Below, piece by piece: positions 2,288-5,062 of a stretch of 41,910 nt of DNA. The notes below the pieces were generated by a model. It searched no databases. It saw nothing but the letters and a program-made list of their open reading frames with translations, and had not been told where the DNA came from. The stretch spans positions 1 to 41,910 of the forward strand of contig CANHCT010000009.1 of NCBI GenBank assembly GCA_947459175.1, read 5' to 3'. The stretch is from Hymenobacteraceae bacterium. GTDB lineage: Bacteria > Bacteroidota > Bacteroidia > Cytophagales > Flexibacteraceae. The position numbers and the translations under genes are program-made. Positions within the stretch are counted from its first letter, which is position 1. Every line of letters begins with the position of its first letter.

Positions 2288-2357
2288 TTGCAAGAAAAAC
2301 TTTGCCCGAAGCGAAGCCATCTTTCAGAAGAAAGTCCGGGATTCCGGCTGAGGGATA

Positions 2358-2410
2358 GCAGCGGAAAGCCCGCAACGAGGAACGAGTGAGGACTTGCAGT
2401 GGATAGCCCG
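2358..2410. repeat. Short degenerate direct repeat next to repeat copy A
   Basis: GCAGCGGAAAGCCCG (2358-2372) and GCAGTGGATAGCCCG (2396-2410) match at 13 of 15 positions, 38 bases apart, in the non-coding stretch between the DUF4143 gene and repeat copy A. They appear to belong to the same repetitive intergenic DNA. Bases 2288-2357 hold nothing I recognise. Confidence 0.5.
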
Positions 2411-2418
2411 ACCCCGAC

Positions 2419-2528
2419 GGAGGAGGGGGCAGCCCCTGACATTCCATGGTCTGTTGCAGGTATCGGCCTATCCGGAGAGATGGGGAATGTGGAAACGCAG
2501 CGAGGCAGAGCAACTCTACGCCGGGTGG
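2419..2528. repeat. Interspersed repeat, copy A (short form, about 110 bp)
   Basis: This segment is nearly identical to the right half of copies B and C. It holds GGGGCAGCCCC (an 11-base palindrome), ACATTCCATGGTCT, CTATCCGGAGAGATGGGG, GAATGTG and AGAGCAACT. Shared internal pairings include ACATTCC with GGAATGT and GTTGC with GCAAC, which are interleaved. It lies between the convergent ends of the DUF4143 gene and hepT. Frames that are open through it are not coding: they are open in several frames, differ between copies and lack any family resemblance. Confidence 0.85.
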
Positions 2529-2578: not shown

Positions 2579-2932
2579 CTAAGACAAATTACTGTCGGAC
2601 GGTATAATCTTGCTTACCTGAACCTTTAAAACAGGAATGAAATTTTGTAAGACATCCCAAACAATCAGGTAGTTCACGCCAATGTAATCGTGGATAAGCC
2701 TGTCCCTCATTCCAGCCATATTTTTCCATGGAATTTCCGGCCAACGCAGTTTCTGGTCAACCGGGATTTTTTTGCTTGCTTCACCGATAATTTCAAGACT
2801 TCTGACCACTGCTCTTTTCCGTATTTCATCTCGCAGAAAGTTCTCCTGATCTAATCCTGATAAGCGCTGACTTTCCAGAAATTCACATTCAGCATATATA
2901 TGCCTGAGGAATTCTTCATAATGTTTAGACAT
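2579..2932 (-). CDS. hepT: HepT-like ribonuclease toxin (DUF86) of an MntA/HepT system
   Basis: This is the toxin half of a type VII toxin-antitoxin pair. Read from the ATG at 2932 the protein has 117 residues and begins MSKHYEEF. An upstream in-frame start would overlap the partner gene more and adds residues unlike the family. The RX4HXY signature of HepT (HEPN) RNases is present as RDRLIHDY, with R76, H81 and Y83. The helical pattern (RAVVRSLEIIGEASKKI, then WKNMAGMRDRLIHDY) is typical of DUF86. In characterised systems the tyrosine is AMPylated by MntA, which silences the RNase. It overlaps mntA by 8 bp, implying translational coupling. All key residues are intact. Confidence 0.92.
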   Translation of the reverse strand: MSKHYEEFLRHIYAECEFLESQRLSGLDQENFLRDEIRKRAVVRSLEIIGEASKKIPVDQKLRWPEIPWKNMAGMRDRLIHDYIGVNYLIVWDVLQNFIPVLKVQVSKIIPSDSNLS

Positions 2933-3221
2933 AAACCACCTCTGACAGAATATGAGGACCGATGTATGGGCTAAGGCCATTGGCGGTTACTACATCCACC
3001 CTGGTTTCGGGAAATGCTGATTCCAGTACCTCGCATGCATAATTAAAGTTGCTGAAATTTTCGCAGCCACTGCGGAAATGAAGGAGCACATCCAAATCAC
3101 TGTCTTTTCCGCTTTCACCTCTCAATGCAGACCCAAACAATCCAATCTGTGCAATTCCATGCTGGAACAGCAGCGGTTTTACTGCCTTAATACGGGAGGT
3201 GATTTCTGCGATGGTTTGCAT
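2925..3221 (-). CDS. mntA: MntA-like minimal nucleotidyltransferase antitoxin
   Basis: A 98-residue minimal nucleotidyltransferase. The GSx10DxD signature is intact: G30-S31, D42 and D44, with a third acidic residue D76 in the RVDVV strand. In studied MntA/HepT modules this enzyme adds AMP groups to the HepT tyrosine and neutralises the toxin; that activity is inferred here from family and from adjacency to an intact RX4HXY partner. Antitoxin first and toxin second is the usual order. The ATG at 3219-3221 lies 18 bases below a TATCTTTG promoter box carried by repeat copy B. Confidence 0.92.
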   Translation of the reverse strand: MQTIAEITSRIKAVKPLLFQHGIAQIGLFGSALRGESGKDSDLDVLLHFRSGCENFSNFNYACEVLESAFPETRVDVVTANGLSPYIGPHILSEVVYV

Positions 3222-3236
3222 AGGCCAACTTAACCC

Positions 3237-3500
3237 AACAAAGATAAGAAACGATTATGACTGGCCAATAGTCCTCCTTTCCTGAGTTTGAAACTCTGGA
3301 TGATAAATAAATTGCAGAGCCTGTCCCGACAGATAGGGAAACTAATACATAGTACGAAGTGCCGCAAGCGAACACTCCGGACAGGTGGGGAGGGGGCAGC
3401 CCCTGACATTCCATGGTCTGTTGCAGGTATCGGCCTATCCGGAGAGATGGGGGAATGTGCAGACGCGGCGAGGAAGAGCAACTCCACACTGGGTGGGGAA
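3237..3500. repeat. Interspersed repeat, copy B (long form, about 250 bp)
   Basis: From AACAAAGATAAG (3237) to AGAGCAACT (3483) this copy matches copy C at 4206-4450 at roughly 85-90% by eye, fading out by about 3500. The right half (about 3385-3500) also matches copy A. Internal structure: CCGGACAGG pairs with CCTATCCGG at 8 of 9 positions around the palindrome GGGGCAGCCCC and the CCATGG core. The left end carries a minus-strand promoter for mntA. Copies A, B and C are all in the same orientation. No transposase or terminal inverted repeats are evident. Confidence 0.9.
3239..3268 (-). promoter_or_regulatory. Promoter of mntA-hepT, inside repeat copy B
   Basis: On the minus strand TTG (3268-3266), a 19-base spacer and TATCTTTG (3246-3239) match the Bacteroidota primary promoter pattern TTG-N19-21-TAnnTTTG. 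The mntA ATG follows 17 bases after the box. The identical promoter, with the same spacing, is in copy C in front of the next antitoxin gene. Confidence 0.75.
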
Positions 3501-3573
3501 TGGCTTTACTCCAGTGCCACCAACTCTGCGGAAAATAGTCTTTGATCGAAGTTGATTTTGTAAATGGAAGTGT

Positions 3574-3635
3574 ACCTTGGCCCCTCTGAGATGGGCAGAC
3601 ACACCGCCGCAGAGTAACTCTAAGCCGAATGGGTA
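3574..3635. repeat. Degenerate partial copy of the interspersed repeat
   Basis: GGCCCCTCTGAGATGGG, then CAGACACACCGCCGC, then AGAGTAACTC and a GGGTAT tail follow the order of the right end of copies A to C (GGCCTATCCGGAGAGATGGG, CAGACGCGGCG, AGAGCAACTC) with substitutions and small gaps. It ends exactly at the stop codon of the RelE-like toxin gene (3636). Bases 3501-3573 between copy B and this fragment show nothing recognisable. Confidence 0.5.
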
Positions 3636-3965
3636 TCAAATTGAACTTTGTTCCAGTATTTTTCTTAGGTCGGCCTCGCTGATGTCTTCTTTTTCTGATT
3701 TGTCATAAATGGAAAGAAGCACTACTGTTTCCCGAACCGAAACTACACAGGTTATTACCCTCGCTCCGCCACTTTTACCTTGTCCCTTACTCTTTATGGC
3801 AAGCCGTATTTTGTAGCAATGCTTACCAATAGAGGTGCCTAAAATTGGATTTTGTTCAAGGTCTGTTTGAAGTTTTATTACATCCTCTTTGATTGAGGAA
3901 TATTTTTTTGAAAGTTTTTTTAACTCCTTTTCAAATATACTTGAGGCCTCAATTTTAAAGCTCAT
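3636..3965 (-). CDS. RelE/ParE superfamily toxin
   Basis: A 109-residue protein with the RelE-fold layout. A basic helical N-terminus (FEKELKKLSKKYSSIKEDVIKLQTDL) is followed by KIRLAIKSKG, a glycine/serine turn GKSGGARVITCVV, and the strand VVLLSIYDKSEKEDIS near the C-terminus. The GKSGGxRVI plus YDKSEKEDI pattern is typical of the RelE/HigB-like mRNA interferase branch, so ribosome-dependent mRNA cleavage is the expected activity, inferred from family. It overlaps its upstream antitoxin gene by 11 bp. No frameshift or truncation is seen. Its stop codon abuts a degenerate repeat fragment. Confidence 0.88.
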   Translation of the reverse strand: MSFKIEASSIFEKELKKLSKKYSSIKEDVIKLQTDLEQNPILGTSIGKHCYKIRLAIKSKGQGKSGGARVITCVVSVRETVVLLSIYDKSEKEDISEADLRKILEQSSI

Positions 3966-4188
3966 CCAAAATATCTTTGAGTGGCCTTGTCTTCAAAGTT
4001 CCTTTTTGCAGGGCTATGTAATCTTCCTTTAAATCGTTTATAATTTGTTCTTTGGTGCGTTCTCCTTCTTCCTCTTTTTGAATCAGCTCGGCAAGTTCGG
4101 CCCTTTGCTGCTGGCTAAAGTGAGCCCTGATCTGATTGGCCAATTCATTAAGGCTCAGACTGGCATAGATTTGAATTCGAGCTTCCAT
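3955..4188 (-). CDS. Putative antitoxin partner of the RelE-like toxin
   Basis: A 77-residue, highly charged and predicted helical protein (IQIYASLSLNELANQIRAHFSQQQRAELAELI, then EEEGERTKEQIINDLKEDYIALQKG). I do not recognise a DNA-binding fold with certainty. Its role as antitoxin is inferred from size, charge, its position immediately upstream of a RelE-like gene and the 11-bp overlap. The acidic/basic C-terminal tail (RPLKDILDEL) is the sort of segment that wraps a toxin. The ATG lies 19 bases below a TATCTTTG box supplied by repeat copy C. Confidence 0.75.
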   Translation of the reverse strand: MEARIQIYASLSLNELANQIRAHFSQQQRAELAELIQKEEEGERTKEQIINDLKEDYIALQKGTLKTRPLKDILDEL

Positions 4189-4205
4189 TTTGATTTGATC
4201 TTAAT

Positions 4206-4469
4206 AACAAAGATAAGAAACGATTATGAATGGCCAATAGTCCTCGTATCCCGAGTTTGAAAATCAGGATGAAAAAAAATGCAGCACCTGGCCCGATAAA
4301 TCAGGAAACTAATTGAAAGTACGGAGGGCCGCAGGCGAACACTCCGGACAGGTGGGGAGGGGGCAGCCCCTGACATTCCATGGTCTCTTGCGGGTATCTG
4401 CCTATCCGGATGGATGGGAGAATGTGCAGACGCGGCGAGGAAGAGCAACTATACGCTGAACGGGGCAAT
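4206..4469. repeat. Interspersed repeat, copy C (long form)
   Basis: This is the second long copy. It matches copy B from AACAAAG (4206) to AGAGCAACT (4450), with weak similarity on to about 4469. The right half is the better conserved part. Substitutions relative to B (GTCTCTTGCGGG for GTCTGTTGCAGG, GGATGGATGGGAG for GGAGAGATGGGGG) weaken the ACATTCC/GGAATGT pairing from 7 to 6 bp. It separates the minus-strand RelE-like pair from the plus-strand ParE-like pair. Confidence 0.9.
4208..4237 (-). promoter_or_regulatory. Promoter of the antitoxin-RelE pair, inside repeat copy C
   Basis: Minus strand: TTG (4237-4235), 19-base spacer, TATCTTTG (4215-4208), then 19 bases to the antitoxin ATG. Same sequence and spacing as the mntA promoter in copy B, so both modules are expected to be transcribed from repeat-borne promoters. 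Confidence 0.75.
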
Positions 4470-4559
4470 TCACAATTCTTGTTTTCCGCAGCCTTTCCTT
4501 TCTACTTTTTTTGGATTGCACTTTGGCGAATTTGACTTACTTTGAGTTCAAATAAAGGT

Positions 4560-4766
4560 ATGAAACAGGTCACCATTACATTGCCGGGAGAGCAATTGGA
4601 TTTTTTTGTTCAATTGGTTCATAAACTTGGTTTTGATGTTGAAGAGGAAACCGAAATTCCGGAGATACAAAAAAACATAGTGATGGAGCGCATCCGGGAA
4701 AGCAAGCCGGAAGAACTTCTTCAATGGAAAACGGCCAGAAAAAAGCTTGTTTTCAAAAATGAATAA
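4560..4766 (+). CDS. Small antitoxin of a ParE-type pair
   Basis: A 68-residue protein read from the ATG at 4560 (MKQVTITLPGEQLDFF); an ATG six codons upstream is possible but adds residues unlike the family. It has an N-terminal strand followed by FVQLVHKLGFDVEEETEIPEIQ and a C-terminal helix with RESKPEELLQWKTARKKLVF. Small Bacteroidota proteins of this type are commonly encoded just before ParE/RelE toxins; I know them as putative antitoxins without a described mechanism. It overlaps the toxin reading frame. No clear promoter box was found at normal spacing. Confidence 0.72.
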   Translation: MKQVTITLPGEQLDFFVQLVHKLGFDVEEETEIPEIQKNIVMERIRESKPEELLQWKTARKKLVFKNE

Positions 4767-5062
4767 TCCGGGCTTTAGTATTCTCATTGAGCCTGATGCC
4801 TTTTTGGATATTCAAAGTGCCATAGATTATTATGAAGAAGCTCAGATTGGTCTGGGCAAAAAGTTTGAAGACACTTTAAATCAATTTTTTTTAAAACTGG
4901 AAAAAGCTCCTTTTTTCCGCTGTTTGATATCTCAATGTTCATTGTGTACCAGTGCGTAAATTTCCGTTTATGGTGCATTATACAACAGATGAGAATCAAA
5001 GGAAAATTATAGTAAGGGCCGTGTTTCACACTTCTTTGGATCCGGTTCGCCGGAAGCGTTAA
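4759..5062 (+). pseudogene. ParE-like toxin, disrupted by a frameshift
   Basis: The first part (from MNNPGFSILIEPDAF at 4759, or MFSKM at 4747) reads DIQSAIDYYEEAQIGLGKKF and LEKAPFF, a classic ParE N-terminus. That frame then runs into CLISQCSLCTSA and stops at 4959. The missing C-terminus continues in the next frame from about 4928: YLNVHCVPVRKFPFMVHY, then RKIIVRAVFHTSLDP, ending at the TAA at 5060-5062. Skipping one base near 4924-4928 restores the expected spacing between the PFF and NV residues, so a one-base insertion is the simplest explanation. The module is probably a decayed antitoxin-only remnant unless this is a sequencing error or a programmed shift. Confidence 0.85.

Follow-up and report, generated by a model that had tools for sequence, protein, structure and literature searches.

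Two unrelated toxin-antitoxin (TA) operons in the analyzed DNA of a Hymenobacteraceae bacterium (a contig stretch of 41,910 nucleotides, hereafter the window) are very probably transcribed from sigma-A promoters of near-identical sequence, which are located inside the homology between two copies (B and C) of a composite repeat. On the basis of sequence comparison, we consider it likely that a block consisting of the promoter, a REP element and a core repeat was duplicated once locally and joined at the promoter box of the second operon, which would have placed near-identical promoters in front of both operons.

The minus-strand ends of copies B and C read TTGGCCA(G/T)TCATAATCGTTTCTTATCTTTGTT, corresponding to the motif TTG-N19-TATCTTTG. 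Promoter B (3239–3268, minus strand) has TATCTTTG at 3246–3239 and TTG at 3268–3266, and promoter C (4208–4237, minus strand) has them at 4215–4208 and 4237–4235, respectively. The spacer between TTG and the box is 19 nt at both promoters, and the distance from the box to the start codon is 17 nt for promoter B (ATG at 3221) and 19 nt for promoter C (ATG at 4188). Thus, the matching minus-strand promoters that the preliminary description of this region had placed 17 and 19 nt before two antitoxin start codons were confirmed in both coordinates and spacers. It had also placed the end of the B/C similarity just past the box, which agrees with our local alignment starting 2 nt beyond it. TAnnTTTG has been described as the -7 box of the Bacteroidota primary sigma factor (PMC9723704; PMC7366714), occupying positions -12 to -5 (PMC9723704). 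When the boxes are placed accordingly, transcription is predicted to start at ∼3234 (leader of ∼13 nt) and ∼4203 (leader of ∼15 nt), near the 3232 and 4201 suggested before. With such starts, the DNA common to B and C would end at about -3 and each transcript would be gene-specific.

Promoter statistics were computed within the window only. The two strands together contain 37 instances of TAnnTTTG (0.035 per 80 nt). The box is found within 80 nt upstream of 10 of the 35 open reading frames (ORFs), with ∼1.2 expected from box density, an enrichment that is not due to chance; the full motif occurs six times, four of them before ORFs. It should be noted that the B and C boxes are identical because of the common origin of the two segments and are therefore not independent evidence. 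A scan for E. coli-type sigma-70 promoters identified no more sites than in shuffled sequences and none at the B and C boxes, as expected for this phylum. From these features of the sequence we infer promoter activity for both segments.

The two operons are of different types. The first gene behind promoter B encodes an MntA-like (MNT) antitoxin (2925–3221, minus strand; Pfam PF01909, 5e-9), which also matches PADLOC candidate PDC-S09, and it is followed by a HepT-like (HEPN) toxin gene (2579–2980, minus strand; Pfam PF01934, 1e-25). As in type VII MntA-HepT systems, genes for a HEPN RNase and an MNT nucleotidyltransferase are found in one operon, with both Pfam domains over the cut-off and the NCBIfam equivalogs (MntA_antitoxin and HepT_toxin) below it. 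AMPylation and neutralization of HepT by MntA is a candidate function of this pair. Behind promoter C, the first gene encodes a putative antitoxin (3955–4188, minus strand) and overlaps the start of a RelE-type toxin gene (3636–3965, minus strand; Pfam PF06296, 1.4e-7). Homologs of this antitoxin were detected in nine other genomes of the order, and no accepted family was assigned to it by the Pfam and NCBIfam profiles. Two further features were observed nearby: a TA-like pair to the right of copy C (4560–5061, plus strand), the toxin of which appears to be broken by in-frame stops, and an AAA_14/DUF4143 ATPase gene (1154–2287) with a full-length match to PADLOC candidate PDC-S01.

The repeat itself is composite and consists of decayed elements of the REP type. 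In the B/C local alignment (3237–3498 versus 4206–4465), the two copies are 87% identical, with 35 of 262 columns differing. Copy B comprises a segment of ∼85 bp that is common to B and C only, as defined by this alignment, and holds the promoter (3237–3321, minus strand), a decayed REP-type hairpin element designated type 1 (3322–3388, plus strand; 28 invariant columns among eight copies, with congener copies adjoining a RAYT gene) and a core repeat (3389–3498, plus strand) common to copies A, B and C. Copy C (4206–4465, plus strand) contains the same three parts. In copy A, the core forms the right part (2422–2528, plus strand), which matches B at 93% and C at 89%, and the left part (2310–2436, plus strand) is a Flavo-1-like element (RF01705) without an outward promoter. 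The latter scored 31.9 bits in cmscan, below the Rfam gathering threshold of 42 bits, with the match at 2342–2417. The same element is repeated in the organism's own genome (G000; contigs C168, C52, C11 and C39), where the copies end in GGGGGCAGCCCC, and in congeners; a literature search on Flavo-1 RNA yielded nothing. One of these copies is located upstream of the second MNT gene of the genome (L116, 1440–1559 and 1767, contig C168), which is preceded, 13 nt before its ATG, by a TACTTTTG box of its own.

Several observations connect the REP and core part with RAYT transposases. Directly to the right of copy B, positions 3496–3629 are 86% identical to positions 4509–4375 of contig C149 of the same genome, which comprise the end of a RAYT gene and its downstream element. 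Within this region, we identified what remains of the C-terminal end of a RAYT (TnpA_REP, Y1_Tnp) gene, decayed and with one internal stop (3498–3565, plus strand; tblastn EWLYSSATN / CGK*SLIEVDFVN, E 1.3e-4) and, downstream of it, a REP-like piece (3585–3632, plus strand) that by eye is similar to the core's right half. RAYT genes are present in the organism's own genome and in sister genomes. Intact copies of the type 1 hairpin read GTCCTGAGTG-CCGCAAGCGAA-CACTCAGGAC-AGGTGG and adjoin a RAYT transposase gene in sister genome G001 (contig C121), whose product was over the cut-off of NCBIfam REP_Tyr_transpos. In folding analysis, an intact congener copy reached -14.6 kcal/mol (z -3.4), and the z values of copy C and the degenerate copy B were -1.8 and -0.4, respectively. 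Both features of a RAYT-REP system (REPtron) were found: an intergenic palindromic element present in several copies (in both G000 and G001), and its position beside a Y1_Tnp RAYT gene (C121 of G001 and C149 of G000, with the decayed gene end beside copy B). The REP and core part of the repeat would thus be RAYT-REP debris, with the RAYT gene end surviving beside copy B.

Homologous operons in other genomes indicate what might have preceded the current arrangement. In most homologs of the C antitoxin, TAnnTTTG is located 19–24 nt before the ATG; it is 53–56 nt away in two others and missing from one. In the two nearest MNT homologs (L072 and L073), TATTTTTG precedes the ATG by 20 nt; in more distant MNT homologs the box is often absent. 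All these boxes are located in unrelated DNA without the B/C repeat. Since a box ∼20 nt before the ATG is found in most close homologs of both antitoxins in unrelated DNA, its position belongs to the operons. The leader that follows the box of promoter C, AGATCAAAT, is similar in L063 and L065, two distant homologs of the C antitoxin (p ∼0.01, uncorrected for 12 comparisons), a weak similarity that fails strict correction. No such match was observed between the mnt leader and its nearest homologs L072 and L073. The resemblance of the C leader to those of distant antitoxin homologs weakly suggests that promoter C is the older one and B the recipient.

Considering these data, we infer the following scenario. 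In the ancestral state, a separate box would have stood here in each operon family. An intergenic block, composed of the sigma-A promoter segment (∼85 bp), the decayed REP hairpin and the core as a second REP-like part, would then have been copied once within the TA island from one operon to the other and joined through microhomology at TTTGTT, in the second operon's promoter box. As a result, the two unrelated operons would be preceded by near-identical promoters, each keeping its own leader. Read from two copies only, the direction and mechanism of this duplication are tentative. A broader version, in which TA islands repeatedly recombine at the promoter box, so that REP-flanked intergenic blocks are copied and fused at TTTGTT and unrelated TA operons come under one promoter and become co-regulated, appears very improbable.

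An alternative explanation, which we regard as unlikely, is that the blocks mark where the TA units of a tandem array meet, the array having been generated by unequal crossing-over and the genes between the repeats replaced later by cassette-like homologous recombination. The three cores, which are separated by TA operons, start at 2422, 3389 and 4356, that is, exactly 967 and 967 nt apart despite the unrelated operons in between. Moreover, the core is a mosaic, A and B being identical over the first 64 nt (2422–2485 versus 3389–3452) and B and C being closer in the last part, which suggests exchange between copies. However, the two operons are unrelated, the equal spacing is probably a coincidence, the left half of copy A differs (Flavo-1-like), and homologous operons in sister genomes show no match to these repeats.

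The preliminary description had proposed that the repeat ends as a ready-made promoter expressing any gene next to it, as would be the case for a promoter-bearing mobile or repeated element. Both copies with such an end do carry a promoter, with two unrelated operons behind them. However, that description had itself named copies lacking the box as an outcome that would count against the proposal, and such copies predominate. Of the two element types, 15 copies from the organism's own genome and two congeners had enough flank, and we searched for the box up to 160 nt on the corresponding side (contigs C26 and C164 have overlapping terminal matches, which were counted as one copy). Only B and C had it, and it was absent at 13 of the 15 copies, that is, copy A and 12 others. 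No significant third copy of the promoter segment was found in the own genome or four congeners, although, the own genome being a draft of 243 contigs, the assembly may lack additional copies or have collapsed them. The full block had no match in 291 genomes of the order, 395 genomes of the class, plasmids or phages, and spread on plasmids, phages or viral contigs was rejected, no match being found there. The 19-base pattern had a single match in 257 Gb of contigs (L010, Prevotella), approximately the chance expectation, and inverted repeats of at least 60 nt were absent from the window. Thus, a promoter-bearing repeat family was rejected and such an element is a very doubtful explanation here. 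Integron attC-like sites were also rejected, having been considered by eye only.

Selection keeping the shared segment similar, with both operons needing the same operator or regulator, is a very improbable reading and was rejected. The first 40 nt of the B/C alignment show one difference versus 34 in the other 222 columns, but this stronger conservation of the promoter part does not reach significance (Fisher p = 0.06), a stretch of 52 nt within the REP and core part is likewise free of differences, and no regulator or operator was identified. The same regulation of both TA modules is a possibility.

The individual parts (a sigma-A promoter, REP debris and TA operons) are ordinary, and the mildly interesting point is that one promoter appears to have come to precede two unrelated TA operons through a local duplication. 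REP debris and local duplication could together produce such a small case of promoter sharing; a portable promoter as a general device is not supported, and the arrangement looks like a local accident.

With regard to the Bacteroidota sigma-A promoter (-7 TAnnTTTG and -33 TTTG/TTG), a TAnnTTTG box with a TTG ∼19 nt upstream is present at both promoters; the box, the -33 TTG, the spacer and the short leader all match, and the predicted promoters show no difference from it in sequence. The Flavo-1 RNA model is matched over its whole length by the left half of copy A, yet the score remains below the threshold, and B and C carry a different left half. Repeats that carry promoters are known, such as Correia elements and IS with outward promoters. 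The repeat end described here likewise aims a promoter at the neighboring gene; unlike in those elements, the promoter is found at two copies only. Finally, RAYTs of the Bacteroidetes subclass 2.6 have the motifs NH[LIV]H and YIH[QN]NP, and their genes are flanked by atypical structures (PMC6006769). The RAYTs found here carry the close motifs NHxH and Y(I/L)H(Q/N)NP, the hairpin adjoins RAYT genes and copies occur elsewhere in the genome. In contrast with such RAYT-associated REP sequences, copies B and C have decayed, and they additionally contain an 85-bp promoter segment absent from all other copies.
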